Shown one piece after another: positions 12,647-21,696 of a stretch of 64,000 bases of DNA. The translations under genes were made by a program, and so were the position numbers. This DNA comes from Nitrososphaeria archaeon (GTDB taxonomy: Archaea; Thermoproteota; Nitrososphaeria; JACIWG01), in the NCBI GenBank assembly GCA_029776065.1, contig JARVJP010000011.1:1-64000 (forward strand). The letters run 5' to 3'. Position 1 is the stretch's first letter. Each line of letters begins with the position of its first letter. A model generated the notes under the pieces. It did not search any database. It saw nothing but the letters and a program-made list of their open reading frames with translations, and was not told the DNA's origin.

Positions 12647-14323
12647 CTAGGGTATTACTACTTTGAATAATGTCTCGAAAGTTGAGAGAACATCCTTTTT
12701 ATGAGCGTCTTTGTTTATGAGGAACAGAGAATGCATTTTTGAATCTGCTTCTATATCAAGGGCATGTCTAGTCATCTTATATGTCTGGTCAAAGCCGATT
12801 AAGAATATAAGGTCTGTCAAGTTGTCAAATATTACTGACGCATTCTTTCCCTTGTTCTTTATCGCTATCAATGTTCCGAGGAGTTGTGATATGTCACCTG
12901 TTGGAATCATCTTCTCGTTTTCACTAATCTTTGAAATCGTAGAAATTGATGGTGTCAAGTATAAGTAATTTATGCCCTTGTAGTTCTTCAATTTCGATTT
13001 GATTAGGCTCTCTTTTCTGGTGAAGACATGTACTTCCTCACCATTCGCAAACCCTTCTCTTACATAGTCTTCAACTTTGCTTGCAAAGTCCTTTTCCGAA
13101 GAAAACTTAAGAAGTATGGGGGTGTTTCTGAGTTCTGTGTGGTTGATATTCAAGGCCTTGGAGAACCTCTCTAGATCCTCCTCTGTAAAATTACGTGGGG
13201 CAAATATTAACCTTAAATCACCTTCTGCTACTTTATTGATTATGGTACTGCCTTTTAAGTAGTCTTCATGTTTCTTAAATAGAACTATTAGGTCTTCGCT
13301 GATTTTCTCATAATTTTCGTTTATGAAGTTGATTAGGTTGTCCGAGAATTTTTGATTTAGTTCATTATTCTCCATCAAAGTTAGCGAAAGGTTGATAAAC
13401 CTTATGATTTGACTCGAGCTTATTGGCTCCTCTTCTTTATTAGTAAACTTTATCTCGTCTTTTTCCAGTTTCACGGTCTCTGCTAATCCACATTCTCTAA
13501 GATAAGAAAGGAACTTAAAGTACTTCACCCCCAAAGTGTCGAAAGGTGGGGAAAGGTTTTCATAAAACGCTTTAATAGTTTCAGTTAACATTTTGGGCTT
13601 ATAAATGCCTGTTTCCTGCATAAAGATCACCTTCTTCTTAGGTGGTTGTATTTGGTAGTAAATGACGAAAATATTTGCGAGGTGGAAGAGCCCTCCTAGT
13701 GGAGGGAAGTCTGTGTTACTTTGTAAAAAAAGGAGATTCGTAATTGAAATACCTAGAACTTGGAAGAGTAAAAAGGCAAGTAAAATGTAAAGGAATTTCC
13801 TTTTTAGTTCCCTGCTAGGACTTTTTATTAAGAGATATATCAATGTAAAAACTAGAATAACTATTATAATAATGGTGGTTGAATAAATTAAATCGTCTAT
13901 TAGAGGTTTTCCTGTTTGTTTTTGATAGTAGCTCCAACCAAAGGCTCCTGATCTGACTCCGTAGTCGACGTAAAGCCCAATAAGGAGACTTCCAACTAGA
14001 CTTGGAACCAGACATAGAAGGTTTAGTAACCGGGTCTTCCAAATGTTCAGGAATGTTAAAAAGTAGAATCCATATATATATGGGTAGATAACTCCTACGA
14101 TCTTAAAGAGGGCAATGGCTTTAATCTCATTTTCTTCGATTCTATGGAAGAACACTAAAAGTGCCCAGAGAACGATGAACGCTGAGAAAAAATAGAATGG
14201 GAGTGTGACAGAATTGATCTTGAACCTTCGAACTGTTTTTACAATTAAAATAATTATAACACTTGCAACTACCACATATTGTATAAAAAGATACAAGAAA
14301 TTTGGTAGTGTAATGTCAAGCAT
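12647..14323 (-). CDS. 7TM sensor with a degenerate KaiC/DUF835-like cytoplasmic domain
   Basis: 558 residues. Seven hydrophobic helices occupy ~8-235, resembling the 7TM region found at the N-terminus of some histidine kinases. A helical linker (~250-370) contains no H-box or ATPase motif. The last ~190 residues (LRLIFAPRNF, ASVIFDNLTDLIFLIGF, MHSLFLINKDAHKKDVLSTF) look like a RecA/KaiC fold that lost its Walker A, similar to DUF835-type archaeal signalling domains. Last gene of the four-gene operon; its start overlaps the GH3-like gene by 8 nt, so the products probably work together. Likely a membrane receptor that signals through protein contacts rather than phosphorylation; the ligand is unknown. 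Confidence 0.65.
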   Translation of the reverse strand: MLDITLPNFLYLFIQYVVVASVIIILIVKTVRRFKINSVTLPFYFFSAFIVLWALLVFFHRIEENEIKAIALFKIVGVIYPYIYGFYFLTFLNIWKTRLLNLLCLVPSLVGSLLIGLYVDYGVRSGAFGWSYYQKQTGKPLIDDLIYSTTIIIIVILVFTLIYLLIKSPSRELKRKFLYILLAFLLFQVLGISITNLLFLQSNTDFPPLGGLFHLANIFVIYYQIQPPKKKVIFMQETGIYKPKMLTETIKAFYENLSPPFDTLGVKYFKFLSYLRECGLAETVKLEKDEIKFTNKEEEPISSSQIIRFINLSLTLMENNELNQKFSDNLINFINENYEKISEDLIVLFKKHEDYLKGSTIINKVAEGDLRLIFAPRNFTEEDLERFSKALNINHTELRNTPILLKFSSEKDFASKVEDYVREGFANGEEVHVFTRKESLIKSKLKNYKGINYLYLTPSISTISKISENEKMIPTGDISQLLGTLIAIKNKGKNASVIFDNLTDLIFLIGFDQTYKMTRHALDIEADSKMHSLFLINKDAHKKDVLSTFETLFKVVIP

Positions 14324-15932
14324 TTCTGCTACATTCCTTAAGCTCTTCGATGACGTACCCCTTATTAGGAGGAACTACCTTTGGGGGTTTGTATTGTCCT
14401 AAAGGCATGTTCTTCCTCACCTGCTTTATTGTATATCGAGTAAAGGTTCCCCTACTCAAGAAGTTGACTCTAATTACATCAGAAGGGTTTCTTATGTTAA
14501 AATCTTTAATGTAATTATCAAATCCTGGAACCAGCTTCAACATGGAATCAAATATCAGCCTTTCTGCTTGGTTTGGTGTCACCGGCCATTCCTTCTCAAA
14601 ATATATGTCTAATCTTTGCGAGGGCTCTGTTTTTGACACTACCCACCTATCTGAAGAAACAAATCCCACGTCAGCTAACACTTTAGCCATCAAGTCCTCA
14701 GAGAACCTATAATAGTTAAGAACATCCAGTATATTCTGGGTTCTACCTTCGAAAGTAAATACTGGGCAGCCATCATAGAAGTCTTCGACTTTGAACATAT
14801 CTCTCACCCTATATCTTGTGAATGTAGAATAGTAGGGTGTTGCGATAAGCTCGTATATATCCCCCAGTTTTAATTCGTAAAGCTTCCTTATCTCACCTTT
14901 TTCATCTAAGAACTCTGGGTATACGCTTCTGAGGTTGGGGAAAAAGTCTAGTTTTCTGTCTGGTCTTCCAAACATCGCGCATCCGATTTCCGTGGTGGAA
15001 TAAGAATTAATCGGTTCCACTCCAAACTCTTTCTTAAAGAAGTCAGAATATATGCGCGCATCGGTGCTCCCGATTATAACTCCCTTCAGAGGCATTATTT
15101 CTTTGAGATCTTTTACCCTCTTTCTACTAATCTTTGTGACGAGAAGGTTCAGTAGGATTAGCATTCTCTTCCACCAAATGGGCGTCATCTTATAAGATTC
15201 TGTCATAAAGTATTCTGGGTCAGAGAAGTATTTGCATGTCATATAGAGTAGTGCACCGCTTCCTCCAACTATTTGTATCTTGTTTCCATTTTCAATAAGT
15301 TTTAATGCCTTATAAAACTTTTTCCCCATATCATTGGTAAAATCCGTGAAGCTTATTGGTGGGATGAAGTTGATTAGGCTCTCCCAATATCTTAGTGCCC
15401 ACCCACTCAGGTAGGGGACGGGGGCGACGAGGTTAAACGCATTTGGCTTTGGGTCAAAGACCTTTTCTCCCCATTCCTTTGCAGTGCCAAACAAGATTAT
15501 CGAGACCGTGTCTGATATGAATTGTTCGTTGAATTTCACACCATGGGGAACGAACTTGTTCTTTCCAGTTGTACCGGTTGTCTTTATGCAGATCGATGGC
15601 TTGTCTGGGAGATAACCTTCCACTGTATAAGAGATCGAGCCTAATATTCGAATGTAGTAATCATGCCATAGTTCACCGCTACCCCGTGGCTCGGTTTTAA
15701 CCCTGTCTTCTATAGTGTCTCTAAAGGTTGATAAAAAGGTGTATTCCTCGTACTCTGTGACAGGTATATCGTTTACTGTTTTAATTTCTCTATCTTTACA
15801 GATACTCTTAGCAGTTTTTGTAGTGTTCCAAGCTTCTAGATGCTTTTTTAACTTCTCTTCACCGAAGGCTAATTGCTCATCAAAGCTCTTTTTAAAGAAG
15901 TCACAGTGTTTCCATAGTTCTTCGTTGTCCAA
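14316..15932 (-). CDS. GH3-like acyl-adenylate-forming enzyme
   Basis: 538 residues of the GH3/ANL adenylation superfamily. Motifs visible: the nucleotide loop TTGTTGKNKFVPHG (about 117-130), a VGGSGALL loop, SYSTTEIGCAMF (about 309-320), and YRVRDMFKV in the hinge region. In plants GH3 enzymes conjugate amino acids to hormone carboxylates through acyl-AMP; relatives are phenylacetate-CoA-ligase-like. The substrate and acceptor here are unknown. It starts directly at the end of the KaiC-like gene and overlaps the 7TM gene, so it is embedded in a signalling operon, unusual for a metabolic ligase. It may make or remove the signal molecule (inference). Confidence 0.75.
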   Translation of the reverse strand: MDNEELWKHCDFFKKSFDEQLAFGEEKLKKHLEAWNTTKTAKSICKDREIKTVNDIPVTEYEEYTFLSTFRDTIEDRVKTEPRGSGELWHDYYIRILGSISYTVEGYLPDKPSICIKTTGTTGKNKFVPHGVKFNEQFISDTVSIILFGTAKEWGEKVFDPKPNAFNLVAPVPYLSGWALRYWESLINFIPPISFTDFTNDMGKKFYKALKLIENGNKIQIVGGSGALLYMTCKYFSDPEYFMTESYKMTPIWWKRMLILLNLLVTKISRKRVKDLKEIMPLKGVIIGSTDARIYSDFFKKEFGVEPINSYSTTEIGCAMFGRPDRKLDFFPNLRSVYPEFLDEKGEIRKLYELKLGDIYELIATPYYSTFTRYRVRDMFKVEDFYDGCPVFTFEGRTQNILDVLNYYRFSEDLMAKVLADVGFVSSDRWVVSKTEPSQRLDIYFEKEWPVTPNQAERLIFDSMLKLVPGFDNYIKDFNIRNPSDVIRVNFLSRGTFTRYTIKQVRKNMPLGQYKPPKVVPPNKGYVIEELKECSRNA

Positions 15933-16631
15933 CTAAACGACCTCCGGGTAGGGTGTTATAACTATGCCATCTCGTTCACTGATAACATACTGATAGAACT
16001 TCATGTCATGGCTTGTCCCTCTCATCTTTAAAATCATCAACCTCCTCCTGAGTTCGCCTCTCACAGGTAGAGTTTCTAGTTTAATTATGCCATCGGCAAC
16101 GAATTCCTCAATCCCTGAACCTAGCTTATCTTCTCCCCAAGGTGTTTCTGCGATCAGAAAGCTAGTACAGTCTAATCTTCTCAGTAGCTTCTGCATTAAA
16201 GATATTGTAGCCCTAACTTCAACCCTTTCTGTGAAGGCGATTGTTAAAGCTGTTATAGAATCAACCACCATCCTCTTCGCTCCGAAACTCCTAGACTCCT
16301 CAAGTATCATGTCAAGTAAGACGTCTAAACTCATTTTCTTTATTGAGATAAAATCTAATATTTTGATCTTTCCCTCTTTTTCAAGTCTCTCAAAATCCCA
16401 GCCTAAGGACAGCATAAACCTTTTAAAGATTTGAGCACTTTCGTTAAAGGAAACTAACAACCCTTTCTCATTGTAGACCGTTGCACCATTATAGAGAAAT
16501 TGTGCCGCAGTAATCGTCTTACCCGTTCCAGGCCCTCCTGCGATCAGTGTGGCTGATCCCTTCGGAACCCCTCCGTTAAGTAATCGGTCAAGTTCAGCTA
16601 TTCCAGTAGGCGTTTTTTCAACCGTTATCAA
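15933..16631 (-). CDS. KaiC-like RecA-family ATPase
   Basis: 232 residues, a single KaiC/RadA-like domain. Start PTGIAELDRLLNGGVPKGS, Walker A GGPGTGKT at 32-39, Walker B MVVDS ending in Asp124, and RGTSHD...F in the C-terminal part typical of archaeal KaiC-like proteins. It lacks the second KaiC repeat and any zinc finger. It probably acts as an ATP-dependent switch or oligomeric scaffold in signal transduction. It overlaps the upstream regulator gene by 14 nt and abuts the GH3-like gene. Confidence 0.85.
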   Translation of the reverse strand: MITVEKTPTGIAELDRLLNGGVPKGSATLIAGGPGTGKTITAAQFLYNGATVYNEKGLLVSFNESAQIFKRFMLSLGWDFERLEKEGKIKILDFISIKKMSLDVLLDMILEESRSFGAKRMVVDSITALTIAFTERVEVRATISLMQKLLRRLDCTSFLIAETPWGEDKLGSGIEEFVADGIIKLETLPVRGELRRRLMILKMRGTSHDMKFYQYVISERDGIVITPYPEVV

Positions 16632-17295
16632 TGCTACTCACAGTCTCGCTGACTTCGAATATAAATTTTTGCGTGTTCTCAGCTAAGATTTTGTCCTCGT
16701 CCTTTCTAACATGCACCCTTTTTGAGAAGATCTCTTCTAATCCACCTGATATTATTCCTTTTATAACATTATCAGTTACTTGGTTTTTGAATGGTATCTT
16801 AGAAATAGTAATCCCCCCCATCCCTTTCTCATAGTCGATTTGGTTATATTCTAGTTCCCCCCATCTTTTTGCATTAAATATTTGGCTGAAACCAACTATC
16901 GACTGATTCAAGTCTATACCATCTTTCTTAAGGGTTCTCCCATACGTTCTACCTATCGCTAATCCAATGTTAAAAAGTATGACTCCGCCACCAACTCCAA
17001 ATATGTTCTTTATTGTAGATGCTAAGCTGTCCCACTCTGTCGCACTAATCTCTATGAACCCCTCTGAAAGCATTAATGGTGTTTCTTGAATAAACCCTGA
17101 CTTGATTAATTGTTTGTCAACTTCAACCCTATAACCTTTTATTATCCCCTTCTCCTCCATTTTCTTTATCCTCCTAGCAATGGTTCTATCTGATAAGCCA
17201 ACGTTTTGTGCGATCTTCTTACAGTCCATTCGCGCGTTTCTTTTCAAATTCTCTAGAATCTTTATATCAAGAGTATCGACATTAGTGTCACTCAT
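16618..17295 (-). CDS. Winged-helix regulator with a V4R-like ligand-binding domain
   Basis: 225 residues from ATG 17295, chosen because AGGAG lies 6 nt upstream; an in-frame TTG at 17319 would add 8 residues. Residues ~6-60 are an Lrp/AsnC-type HTH (LDIKILENLKRNARMDCKKIA, LSDRTIARRIKKMEEKGIIKGY). Residues ~85-220 have the V4R pattern: FNIGLAIGRTYGRTL, then a WGELE strand pair and GLEEIFSKRVHV. The metal-binding Cys/His of many V4R proteins are not seen. V4R domains bind small hydrophobic ligands, so this is probably the transcriptional output or autoregulator of the operon. A TATA-like TTTTATAA on the minus strand near 17326-17333 is a candidate operon promoter. Confidence 0.65.
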   Translation of the reverse strand: MSDTNVDTLDIKILENLKRNARMDCKKIAQNVGLSDRTIARRIKKMEEKGIIKGYRVEVDKQLIKSGFIQETPLMLSEGFIEISATEWDSLASTIKNIFGVGGGVILFNIGLAIGRTYGRTLKKDGIDLNQSIVGFSQIFNAKRWGELEYNQIDYEKGMGGITISKIPFKNQVTDNVIKGIISGGLEEIFSKRVHVRKDEDKILAENTQKFIFEVSETVSSIDNG

Positions 17296-17616
17296 CGCCT
17301 CTCCTAATATATTTGTCAATAAATGTTATAAAAGACTTTCTATGGCATTAACTTGTCGTTTTTTGACATAATATCTTCAACCTTAATTCCAACTTAAATC
17401 CTAAATTTCACCAATTCAAAATGTATTTTTACACAAGCATGTCATTATTGTTCTGCACCCTCTTAAGTAGAGTAGGAGTATGGTTCTTCCCCTATTGATT
17501 CTTTTGGGAGGCTCTAAAGTGTAGAGCCATTAAGACGACCCATATTTGCAATTTACTCCTTTACCGCGATTATCTATAAATAAAGTTATTTACCTTCTAA
17601 ATATAGCTACGTTGGA
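17296..17616. other. Divergent intergenic region with a 7-bp hairpin
   Basis: About 320 bases between the divergent regulator operon and alaX. It holds the minus-strand promoter near 17326, and a perfect hairpin GGCTCTA/TAGAGCC (17510-17516 and 17522-17528) with a 5-nt loop about 90 nt before alaX. The hairpin could be a small RNA element, a terminator or an operator. No ORF seen. Confidence 0.35.
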
Positions 17617-18366
17617 TTGAATCTCGATGATGTAGTATCAGGGTGTGAGAGTAATAACCCGAAGTATTGGGAGGACCCATACCTTAAACTTAATAAAACA
17701 TTACTTAGGAAGGTCGTCTTTGAAGATAGGAAAGCTGTTTATCTGATTACAGATCCAACCATCTTCCATCCAAAGTATGGTGGCCAACCATCTGATAGAG
17801 GCAAGGTGTATGGTAAAGGCTTCTCTGTAAACATAAACAAAACTATGCGCTATAAGAGGTTTATCGTTCTCTACGGGAAAGTCGAATTTGGTGTTCCTAG
17901 AGAAGGTGATGTTGTAGAAGAGATCGATTGGTCCCTACGCTACACGTTGATGAAACGTCATACTGCCTCACACCTCCTTGATCACACCTTAAGATTGACA
18001 TTAGGATCACATATAGAAACTATAGACTCATGGCTTGGCGATGACTGGTACATCTCTTATAAGGGGCCTCTACCTGCTGAAGAATTGTTAAAGAAGGCGG
18101 TCGAGCTCGAAAACAGTTTGATTAAGGAAGGGTATATCGTGTCTTCTAGACTTGTAAGTAGAGCAAGTCTTCTAGAAGAAGCTAAGAATTCACCTAACCT
18201 CACTCGTCTTCCTGAGCTTGATGTTTATCGCCTAGTAAAAATAAATGGTTTCGAAGATATCGCCTGCAGTGGAACCCATTTGAGGAGCATTTCAGAAATC
18301 GGAAAAGTTATATATATTCGCTCAGAACCTATGCAAGATGGTTTTAGAGTCTACCTGAGCTTATGA
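17617..18366 (+). CDS. alaX: Alanyl-tRNA editing protein AlaX-like
   Basis: 249 residues. Has the editing-domain fold of AlaRS/AlaX with metal-binding motifs HxxxH (RHTASHLLDH, about 113-122) and CxxxH (CSGTH, about 217-221), plus PKYGGQPSDRG typical of the N-terminal barrel. It hydrolyses mischarged Ser- or Gly-tRNA-Ala in the cytoplasm. Length fits the longer AlaX class with the barrel but without a C-terminal coiled coil. Starts with TTG. It is convergent, one base apart, with the dUTPase-like gene. Confidence 0.88.
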   Translation: MNLDDVVSGCESNNPKYWEDPYLKLNKTLLRKVVFEDRKAVYLITDPTIFHPKYGGQPSDRGKVYGKGFSVNINKTMRYKRFIVLYGKVEFGVPREGDVVEEIDWSLRYTLMKRHTASHLLDHTLRLTLGSHIETIDSWLGDDWYISYKGPLPAEELLKKAVELENSLIKEGYIVSSRLVSRASLLEEAKNSPNLTRLPELDVYRLVKINGFEDIACSGTHLRSISEIGKVIYIRSEPMQDGFRVYLSL

Positions 18367-18367
18367 C

Positions 18368-18832
18368 CTACTTGTTTTGATATCTGCCCTTGTACCCAGA
18401 TCTAACGTTCTTCGATCTTATTAGGATGAACTGAACTATCCTTGCTCCCTTCTCGATGACTATCGGGTTATTAACCTTCAAAAGAATTCTTGAGAATCCA
18501 GAATAACCTGAATCCCATAACGCTGCACCTATATACGCACCCAACCTAACAAGTGAGGATCTAGGGAGGCAAAAACCTACTGCGTTTAAAGGCACTATAA
18601 TCCTCTCCCTTACTTGAAAGATATATGTTCCCTCGTTTAAAATGTAAAAACCTTCATCATTTGGGGAAACCTCTACATACTCTGGTAATACTACTCTATC
18701 TTTCAAGATCTGTCCACGCCCTACAATTTTAAAAAGCTTGTGTATTGTTAGGTCTACACCATTGGGTTGAATTTGATCCTCGCACACTCCTTCAACATAT
18801 TTCGCAACATCTTCTCCTGTCAGGACGCTCAA
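18368..18832 (-). CDS. dut: dUTPase / dCTP deaminase family protein
   Basis: 154 residues of the trimeric DCD-DUT family. The core motif RSSLVRLGAYIGAALWDSGYSG holds the usual Arg-Ser-Ser nucleotide-binding turn and the beta-turn with Gly/Tyr. QPNGVDLTI near residue 22-30 is typical of archaeal dUTPase-type members. The deaminase-specific glutamate is not evident at the W-D-S-G site, so dUTP hydrolysis is favoured. It keeps dUTP low and supplies dUMP. Dcd activity cannot be excluded by eye. Confidence 0.8.
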   Translation of the reverse strand: MSVLTGEDVAKYVEGVCEDQIQPNGVDLTIHKLFKIVGRGQILKDRVVLPEYVEVSPNDEGFYILNEGTYIFQVRERIIVPLNAVGFCLPRSSLVRLGAYIGAALWDSGYSGFSRILLKVNNPIVIEKGARIVQFILIRSKNVRSGYKGRYQNK

Positions 18833-19497: not shown

Positions 19498-21696
19498 TTA
19501 TCTAGAAAGTACGAATTTCTTTAGAAGTATAAGTAGTTCTATGCAGAAGGACGCTATTGTCATAGCCCAGATTAGTAACAGTAAATTCGTGAGGGGTGTG
19601 CTCCAAAGTCTACCCGCTAAGTTAAGGTTTTTGGTGAACAAGTCGTAGAAGACCTTTGTAAACACTATTCCACTCATTATGTATAAGGCTAAAAATTTTT
19701 TACTCGCATTTTGTTCTGTCGCTAAAGACAGTTCCTTTCCCTCCTTTATCTCTGCAATTCTGTTTTCAGTGAATTTTTTCGAAATACCATGGCTGGTCTT
19801 CTCCCAGTAAAATGGCTTGGTTATGAGCTGTAACGCTCCCCTCCACGCTCCTATGCTTATTAAAACCCAATAAGCTGGCATCGTAAATGCTAATAGAACT
19901 CCCGAATAATTTCTTTTAACAATCGATGGCACTATGTAAAGTAGTATCTGAACTAGGTTGCCAACTAGTAGGTTGAACATGCAGACGTATATTATTGGGT
20001 AGAAGAAGAGGAAGTCGAATATACCAGGTACCAGCAATGTTAGGATTGTTACTGCCCATAAAAGGGGGTTGATGAGTGGTAGGAAGATATTTCCTCCGAA
20101 CGTGAACTGAAAGAGTAGGAACTTGCTTAAACCCATTTCTGAAATCAGCCTTTTAGGATGCCTCATGTGAACCAGATATGTTTGAATGTGGCCTTTATAC
20201 CATCTGGACCTTTGTCTTATCCAATTCCATAGCCGGCTATTGGCCTCTTCATAGGTATAAGAATTGAGCATGGCTGTCTTCAAATTTCTTCTGGAGATCC
20301 TAATACCAAGGTCTGCATCCTCTGTCACATTATATGGATCCCAGCTTCCAAGATCACGTAATTGTTTTGTTTTAAAGTGGTTGCTTGTACCGCCTAATGG
20401 AATAGGTGCATTCACCCTATCTAATCCTTCTAGGTAGTAATCATACCAGTATGAGTATTCTAGGGAAAACCATTTTGTGAGAATATTCTCGTTTGGGTTG
20501 TAAAAGTTGAGACGTGACTGTAAACAGACGCAGTCTTTCTCACTCAGTGAAAAAGCTATAACTGCCTTTTTAAGTTGATCTGGTTCAGGGTTGTCCTCTG
20601 CATCATATATCACGCAAAACTGTCCCCTTGCTCTTAGAAGGCCGTAGTTGCAGGCGCGTGGTTTAGTTCTTATATCCGCCTCTGGAACTATTATTATGTC
20701 AAAGATCCTTAACAACCTTCTATATTCTTCCTTACTCATATTTGATGGTGTTACCTCTGGTTCTCCAAATAACCCAAGTTTCTCAGCTTCTCTAAGTGTT
20801 TCCTCGTCCCCTTCTTCTATTAATATCTTAACGTCTAACTTATCTTTGGGATAGTCAAGGTTAAAGATGTTCAGTAATATGTTAGGGAGCATTCTTGCTT
20901 CTCTATAGACTGGGATTAGAATTGTGTAAATGGGTAACGTGTCTTCGTCTAAGTTTTCAATGTCCTCTCTTGCTATATTCTTGGTTCTGTGAGAGCCATG
21001 TACTCCTTTGGAGGATATGTAGAACTTGGGCAGATTGACAAATATGTACATTATGTTTATTAACGAAAAAACAAGGATGAAGGACGCAGGATAATTAATT
21101 ATCGCTAGTACCAATATCAACAATGATGAGACTATCACCAAGTACCTTTGCCATGGGTAAAGCACCTGGTAGGCTGATTCATCTGGGCTTCTATAATACA
21201 AGTCCCATAGCGCTCTATTTTTATGAATATCCCTATACACCTTCTCAATAGCCCCTTCAACCGCTTCAATCGATGAAACATAAAGTTCTATTCTCTTATT
21301 TCTAAGCAGGGTTCTAAGAAGTCTAAAAGCACTTATATTTAGTGGATTAGCTGTTACTATAGTGGCTCTACCATCGGTGACCTCTAAAGGTAGAATAAGG
21401 TTCTCTTTTTGGAAACGATATGGGAGCGCTGCTGCTAAATTAAACCTACCCTGCACCTCTTCCTTCGAAAGAAATGGGAGACCAAGTATGTTAGCAAGCT
21501 CTACGAAGAACGACTCATTAACTTTAATCTTATTCTGATTTAAGACGAAAATTAAATTTTCCTCAGTAACCTCTACTTCTTCTAATACTTTAGGGTCAGA
21601 GACCCCACCCTTTTTTAAAAGCGAGATAAGCGTGTCCTTATCTACCATTTTCTCTAGGCTTATCTGTGCCATTCTCGAGTCGTCCAGCTTCTTCAA
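19498..21696 (-). CDS. Membrane GT2 glycosyltransferase with an N-terminal MshEN domain
   Basis: 732 residues. Residues ~20-150 match the MshEN/GspE-N type domain (ILGLPFLSKEEV, LPYRFQKENLILPLEV, GRATIVTANPLN). Two membrane helices follow (~185-235). The GT2 catalytic domain (~255-500) has YTILIPVYREARMLPN, YDAEDNPEPDQ, TEDADLGIR and the processive-type QRSRWYKG. Several C-terminal helices complete a BcsA-like topology. It probably exports a polysaccharide or glycosylates an envelope component. MshEN binds c-di-GMP in some bacterial ATPases; whether it binds a nucleotide here is unknown. TTG start at 21696; an ATG eight codons later is an alternative. Divergent from the large histidine kinase. 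Confidence 0.8.
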   Translation of the reverse strand: MKKLDDSRMAQISLEKMVDKDTLISLLKKGGVSDPKVLEEVEVTEENLIFVLNQNKIKVNESFFVELANILGLPFLSKEEVQGRFNLAAALPYRFQKENLILPLEVTDGRATIVTANPLNISAFRLLRTLLRNKRIELYVSSIEAVEGAIEKVYRDIHKNRALWDLYYRSPDESAYQVLYPWQRYLVIVSSLLILVLAIINYPASFILVFSLINIMYIFVNLPKFYISSKGVHGSHRTKNIAREDIENLDEDTLPIYTILIPVYREARMLPNILLNIFNLDYPKDKLDVKILIEEGDEETLREAEKLGLFGEPEVTPSNMSKEEYRRLLRIFDIIIVPEADIRTKPRACNYGLLRARGQFCVIYDAEDNPEPDQLKKAVIAFSLSEKDCVCLQSRLNFYNPNENILTKWFSLEYSYWYDYYLEGLDRVNAPIPLGGTSNHFKTKQLRDLGSWDPYNVTEDADLGIRISRRNLKTAMLNSYTYEEANSRLWNWIRQRSRWYKGHIQTYLVHMRHPKRLISEMGLSKFLLFQFTFGGNIFLPLINPLLWAVTILTLLVPGIFDFLFFYPIIYVCMFNLLVGNLVQILLYIVPSIVKRNYSGVLLAFTMPAYWVLISIGAWRGALQLITKPFYWEKTSHGISKKFTENRIAEIKEGKELSLATEQNASKKFLALYIMSGIVFTKVFYDLFTKNLNLAGRLWSTPLTNLLLLIWAMTIASFCIELLILLKKFVLSR

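Follow-up and report, generated by a model that had tools for sequence, protein, structure and literature searches.

Organization of the operon

The DNA analysed here, referred to as the window, comprises positions 1-64,000 of contig JARVJP010000011.1 (assembly GCA_029776065.1) from a Nitrososphaeria archaeon. Four genes forming an operon lie on its minus strand at 12647-17295, with open reading frames (ORFs) at 17295-16618, 16631-15933, 15932-14316 and 14323-12647. From gene 1 to gene 4 they encode a winged helix-turn-helix (wHTH)-V4R regulator, a KaiC ATPase, a GH3-like enzyme and a seven-transmembrane (7TM) protein with a DUF835-type C-terminus. Genes 1 and 2 overlap by 14 nucleotides (nt), genes 2 and 3 abut directly and genes 3 and 4 overlap by 8 nt, in full agreement with the four-gene operon described in the first-pass annotation. 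Gene 1 starts with the ATG at 17295, and a TTG at 17319 is an alternative start. The genes and their domains were located as follows.

14316-15932, minus strand: gene 3, GH3-like enzyme of the acyl-adenylating/amido synthetase type, 538 aa (PF23571, plant GH3 profile match, motifs I-III)
12647-14323, minus strand: gene 4, 7TM sensor with a DUF835-type output domain, 558 aa (Pfam, AlphaFold2 (AF2) model, Foldseek)
13649-14305, minus strand: seven transmembrane (TM) helices of gene 4, residues 7-225, TM4 and TM5 being joined by a beta-hairpin (AF2 model)
13214-13597, minus strand: cytoplasmic linker domain 1 of gene 4, residues 243-370, common to histidine-kinase-type sensors (sensor comparison)
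12653-13117, minus strand: DUF835-type KaiC-like domain of gene 4 without Walker A, residues 403-557 (Pfam, AF2 model, Foldseek)
15933-16631, minus strand: gene 2, single-domain KaiC-family ATPase (PF06745, 4.7e-65; motifs in 12 homologues)
16618-17295, minus strand: gene 1, transcription regulator with wHTH and C-terminal V4R, 225 aa (PF13412, 6e-14; AF2 model and Foldseek; G-x3-G pairs)
17137-17277, minus strand: wHTH domain of gene 1, residues 7-53 (PF13412, alignment of lineages)
16621-17052, minus strand: V4R (Bet3/TRAPPC3-like) domain of gene 1, residues 82-225 (weak Pfam match, AF2 model and Foldseek)

Distribution and gene order

Relatives were sought in 400 genomes of the class and 398 genomes of the phylum; the taxonomic order of the window was represented by only five genomes, and sensor and gene 1 homologues were found in all of them (5/5). 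GH3 matches were found in 10/400 genomes of the class and in 16/398 of the phylum sample, where the sensor profile also matched 16/398. When marginal matches were set aside (E above 1e-6 for GH3 and above 1e-5 for the sensor), the strong matches of both proteins fell in the identical 14/398 genomes. A single window protein compared with the genome contigs gave no match, and the homologues were found by the alignment-based scan.

All 13 loci with a DUF835-type sensor and available upstream sequence (12 relatives and the window) displayed the order V4R-KaiC-GH3-7TM. They belong to Nitrososphaeria, Brockarchaeota and Bathyarchaeota metagenome-assembled genomes (MAGs), and are spread over the family of the window, another family of its class (f17), the f29 group, which includes a Brockarchaeota MAG, and one f34 genome. 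In this set L073 and L089 are the same locus, and two further DUF835-type loci (L054 and L060), which end at contig ends, stand outside the count. Between families the identity was 33-62% for GH3 and KaiC and 21-41% for the sensor; since the gene order is kept despite this divergence, the quartet is not a chance arrangement. The four genes thus recur together in other genomes, with the order kept in 12/12 relatives with enough flank, and their homologues are not found mostly apart. The first-pass view of the four genes as one unit holds for the DUF835-type loci and needs refining beyond them, since KaiC and wHTH-V4R are not part of the invariant core. That core consists of the GH3 enzyme and the 7TM sensor, an obligate pair; KaiC and V4R accompany only the DUF835-type sensor.

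Exchange of the output module

In a second set of loci, the 7TM and linker part of the sensor runs into HisKA and HATPase domains (4.8e-11 and 5.5e-28, respectively) and not into DUF835. These loci were found in Ca. Bathyarchaeum tardum, in other Bathyarchaeota and in one Njordarchaeum MAG. The kinase domains were directly seen in L062-64, L065, L074, L078 and L083, while L066 and L081 include no more of the sensor than its N-terminal part, and L082 stops before the sensor. In none of the kinase-type loci does a KaiC or wHTH-V4R gene adjoin GH3. A response regulator is encoded just beyond GH3 in L065, L066, L081 and L082 (PF00072, 5.3e-28 for L065; the others by homology). HisKA, HATPase and REC domains, present in these sister-clade loci, were absent from the window locus.

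The kinase type occupies one side of a fully supported branch in both the GH3 tree (100/100; 23 rows) and the tree of the sensor N-terminus (100/99; 18 rows); a single exchange therefore suffices, and its direction is not readable from these unrooted trees. KaiC/inactivated-KaiC (iKaiC) and two-component cassettes replace each other behind one GH3-sensor input.

Several further features were observed around the kinase-type loci. One subclade carries three co-directional genes beside GH3, encoding a hydrophobic protein of 130-132 aa, a protein of 100-101 aa and the response regulator (L065:9494-10646, L066:2482-3631, L081:3124-4270 and L082:1700-2845). The two small ORFs, p132 and p101, matched no Pfam family; L078 contains a p132 homologue and no REC within the available sequence. 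In L062/L076 (Bathyarchaeota M17C-01) and L077 (Bathyarchaeum tardum) the GH3-kinase pair adjoins CobD/CbiB, near CobN-type cobalamin genes. Additional kinase-type sensor fragments at the ends of contigs C3, C54 and C129 of genome G683 (L110, L112 and L113) suggest that this genome holds more than one copy of the GH3-sensor system.

Properties of the four proteins

The composition proposed in the first-pass annotation (wHTH-V4R, KaiC, GH3-like enzyme and 7TM protein with a degenerate KaiC) is backed by domain and fold matches. The GH3_M family (PF23571) matched the window protein above its cut-off (7.6e-9) and was present in 18/18 members, and the GH3 profile matched the plant GH3.12 crystal sequences with an E-value of 3.6e-17. 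Nucleotide motifs I (TTG[ST]TG..K), II (Y.x[ST]E) and III (RY..xD) are all present in the window GH3, so that its predicted catalytic motifs are intact. Motif III, which differs among the GH3 copies (RY-x-x-[GRD]-D), reads RYRVRD in the window and RY..GD in the majority of relatives; all copies retain motifs I and II, the acidic last position of motif III and the lysine of a C-terminal GQxK. The window enzyme shares 33-58% identity with its archaeal kin and is remote from plant and bacterial GH3s. Remote GH3-like matches in L055, L056 and L075 were not counted as members, as they are not flanked by sensor, KaiC or V4R genes in the manner of the quartet.

The AF2 model of the sensor (pLDDT 85) displayed seven helices, a linker domain and, at the C-terminus, a RecA-like domain. 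This last domain matched the KaiC and FlaH folds (Foldseek probability 1.00, E about 2e-3), and no Walker A motif (GxxxxGK[ST]) was found in the DUF835-type domain. The degenerate KaiC-like fold suspected earlier in the 7TM protein is thus borne out by the predicted structure, in which the C-terminus is indeed RecA-like. Among the 17 sensor homologues, seven matched DUF835 (PF05763, best 1e-8) and three matched HisKA_7TM (PF16927, best 7e-6), the window protein having no match to the latter. A duplicated linker domain, considered for the long sensors, was rejected because the hhalign comparison was not significant.

Gene 2 encodes a KaiC with intact Walker A (AGGPGTGKT) and Walker B motifs. 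It consists of a single 232-aa domain, without the two tandem KaiC domains of the cyanobacterial clock protein.

The N-terminus of the gene 1 product is an AsnC/Lrp-type winged helix (PF13412), with a recognition-helix region, SDRT[IV]ARRI, near-invariant in all lineages. V4R (PF02830) was weakly matched by 4/12 homologues (best 0.013). The AF2 model (pLDDT 80.5) matched the folds of TRAPPC3/Bet3, MopR, PoxR, DmpR and the V4R protein MJ1460, with Foldseek E-values from 2.7e-6 (6aq3) to 2.5e-4 (8.8e-5 for 2oso). The G-x3-G glycine pairs of helices 2 and 5, described as a V4R feature (PMC2253512), read GLAIG and GIISG in the window protein. Three of these four glycines are invariant in 12/12; the exception is the last glycine of the second pair, which is missing in the L067-69 group. 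No invariant cysteine was found across the V4R alignment, in which the conserved cysteine cluster of the MopR/PoxR phenol sensors had been looked for. In L071 (11081-12129), a V4R protein without winged helix is preceded upstream by a separate ORF of 147 aa with a PadR-like look, which suggests that the DNA-binding part was split off or replaced there.

Putative promoter and operator

Upstream of gene 1 the following elements were recognized, the TATA-like box and the ribosome-binding site being candidates read directly from the DNA.

17354-17368, no strand: palindrome TGTC-AAAAAAC-GACA, candidate operator for the wHTH-V4R regulator (upstream regions of relatives)
17326-17333, minus strand: putative TATA-like box TTTTATAA
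17301-17304, minus strand: putative ribosome-binding site GGAG, preceding the ATG at 17295

The palindrome, TGTC-N7-GACA, is contained in a 16-mer, TGTCAAAAAACGACAA, at 17353-17368. An identical 16-mer was found upstream of the operon in L052, which belongs to a distant family, and the same architecture occurs twice upstream of the operon in L053, as TGTCAGAAAATGACA and TGTCTAATATAGACA. The GH3 proteins of the two families sharing the palindrome are only 37-38% identical, and the expected number of matches to the 16-mer with two mismatches is 0.07 for the 64-kb window. The genomes of L052 and L053 (G196 and G361) each contain a single TGTCNNAAANNGACA site, the one upstream of the operon. The upstream regions of five lineage representatives contained 20 TGTC/GACA half-sites against 3.9 expected, and none of 2000 random draws reached as high. 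Two of the three kinase-type loci tested had no half-site and the third had a single one. A shared half-site fits the near-invariant recognition-helix region, and these data suggest that the regulator may autoregulate its operon through the putative operator.

In the genome of the window, the same palindrome pattern also precedes an Alba gene by 44-58 nt (G000:C3:580576-580590, L127). In four genus-2 relatives (L120, L121, L122 and L126) it overlaps the Alba start codon and falls within the beginning of the gene; as the pattern is coding sequence there, these four cases are probably coincidence.

Regarding the neighbouring genes, an AlaX-like gene (17617-18366, plus strand) sits between the operon and a gene resembling dCTP deaminase/dUTPase (18368-18832). 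The latter is the upstream neighbour in the family of the window, and it is likewise found upstream of the operons of L057, L058, L059 and L061. Farther away, positions 19498-21696 encode a glycosyltransferase family 2 protein with an N-terminal MshEN domain (PF05157), a domain that binds nucleotide second messengers in secretion ATPases.

Comparison with known systems

Enzymes of the GH3 family activate carboxylic acids by adenylation and convert them into amides, such as the hormone conjugates of plants. The prokaryotic GH3 enzyme OlsH makes N-acyl ornithine (PMC12493201). Like plant JAR1/GH3.12 and bacterial OlsH (PMC12493201), the archaeal enzyme has the central and C-terminal domains, motifs I-III and a C-terminal GQxK(x)P. 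Unlike them, it always stands beside a 7TM sensor and not in a biosynthetic operon.

A synthase and a membrane kinase form a quorum-sensing pair in LuxM/LuxN of Vibrio. In FilI/FilR of Methanosaeta harundinacea (PMC3991700), the gene for a small-molecule synthase likewise lies beside that for a membrane/histidine-kinase receptor, and the kinase-type loci resemble such pairs. In contrast, GH3 is unrelated to LuxI, LuxM and FilI, the output is here KaiC-based, and the resemblance concerns the gene arrangement. The 7TM input of the present sensors appears to be of the type found in archaeal HisKA_7TM (PF16927) histidine kinases (PMC5847659), and the Bathyarchaeota clade shares with them HisKA, HATPase and a nearby response regulator; the window sensor differs in ending in DUF835, with no kinase.

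Archaeal signalling hubs of KaiC and iKaiC (DUF835, MEDS) were proposed by Makarova, Galperin and Koonin in 2017, as related in PMC5847659. According to that account, an active KaiC is encoded together with a fusion of an input module and an inactivated KaiC and with a DNA-binding regulator, as in the window; the obligate GH3, and a sensor with relatives in which a histidine kinase takes the place of iKaiC, set the present system apart from the hubs as outlined there. KaiC-like proteins take part in the signalling of archaea. CirA of Haloferax volcanii, required for the density response (PMC12240190) and KaiC-like according to PMC13286277, is similar in being a KaiC-like protein with roles both in controlling transcription and in a small-molecule density response; the excerpts of both sources describe no GH3 or GH3-linked 7TM partner for it.

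In the full-text literature, searched without the 2017 KaiC-hub paper, no paper linking GH3 with KaiC, DUF835 or V4R was found. The first-pass statement that no such system had been described can therefore be kept for the GH3-containing combination in the literature searched. It has to be narrowed for the remainder, as the 7TM-DUF835/KaiC/V4R neighbourhood may appear in the 2017 paper and the KaiC/iKaiC hubs themselves were already proposed in it (per PMC5847659). Each component is of a known kind, and the combination looks undescribed in that literature, the 2017 paper aside.

Interpretation

The reading we favour, to which we give about an even chance, is a self-contained chemical-sensing system built on the obligate pair of GH3 and 7TM sensor. 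In such a system, GH3 would activate a carboxylic acid with ATP and couple it to an amine or amino acid. The ligand, possibly of the N-acyl-amino-acid type, would be made or consumed by GH3 and read by the 7TM sensor. The state of the sensor would pass via the linker domain to the catalytically dead KaiC-like domain, which may gate the active KaiC ATPase through a putative contact between the two. KaiC would in turn control the wHTH-V4R regulator, which may itself bind a hydrophobic ligand. Via the TGTC-N7-GACA sites the regulator would act on its own operon, other genes being presumable further targets. In the sister clade, the output would be the histidine kinase and the response regulator. 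A narrower and rather doubtful version involves cell-cell signalling: GH3 would make an N-acyl-amino-acid autoinducer, the 7TM protein would be its receptor, and KaiC/iKaiC would be a switch equivalent to, and exchangeable with, a histidine-kinase relay.

Several observations weigh against the chemical-sensing reading. The DUF835 match of the window protein (4e-6, 27.1 bits) lies below the Pfam cut-off of 33.1, and the Foldseek E-value for the 7TM model was only about 1e-3. When the profile of the DUF835 domain was compared directly with that of the KaiC of the operon, the match was not significant, so the kinship of the two rests on fold. The genome of the window holds three other palindromes, which represent no excess over a reversed control pattern; a genome-wide regulon read from the palindrome was rejected on this ground and because the Alba-associated sites of the genus-2 relatives fall within coding sequence. 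At the f1 genus-2 loci the full palindrome is missing, and TTTGTC half-sites are present. Moreover, GH3 could feed a purely internal metabolite or act as a soluble sensing partner.

Metabolite control is a possible but less probable explanation. GH3 would detoxify or conjugate a hydrophobic or aromatic carboxylate, taken from the environment or derived from amino-acid fermentation, while sensor and V4R detect the free acid and induce the operon; no cell-cell signal would exist and GH3 would be the regulated output, not the source of a signal. The inactivation of auxin through conjugation by plant GH3s fits this picture, as do the V4R fold relatives MopR, PoxR and DmpR, which bind phenols. V4R domains are also thought to bind hydrophobic ligands (PMC2253512), and the palindrome upstream of the same operon means that the regulator probably controls GH3 itself. 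However, a detoxification enzyme rarely requires a strictly linked 7TM sensor, and a varying partner would be expected; besides, GH3 is the only metabolic gene of the quartet, with no recurring transporter or catabolic neighbours in the ORF maps.

The same enzyme could instead serve membrane-lipid homeostasis by making an N-acyl amino lipid, with the 7TM sensor monitoring the state of the membrane. OlsH provides the precedent as a GH3 that produces N-acyl ornithine (PMC12493201), and the NCBIfam OlsH model gave weak matches in two members (best 0.0067). We consider this unlikely, given that the similarity to OlsH is marginal, that no further recurring gene at the locus is fit to be an OlsI-like acyltransferase, and that archaea are reported to lack such amino lipids (PMC12493201). 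A GH3 that partners the sensor without catalysis or by modifying proteins, for instance by transferring AMP to KaiC or to the sensor, would agree with the strict linkage and with the variation in motif III. It appears highly improbable, as the conservation of motifs I and II, of the acidic last position of motif III and of the GQxK lysine fits an enzyme that adenylates small molecules.

KaiC-like ATPases have been proposed as the central hubs of archaeal signalling; the route by which membrane signals reach them is largely open, and here a conserved sensor and its conserved partner enzyme are joined to either cassette. One sensor-enzyme pair combined with KaiC/iKaiC or with a kinase is natural evidence that both cassettes do the same job, and the set of four proteins is a defined system for testing this equivalence. 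If cell-cell signalling were true, the pair would for the first time provide a KaiC hub with a defined signal synthase and a defined receptor. The presence of a conjugating enzyme of the plant-hormone type within an archaeal signalling operon offers a concrete way towards a small-molecule signal of archaea.

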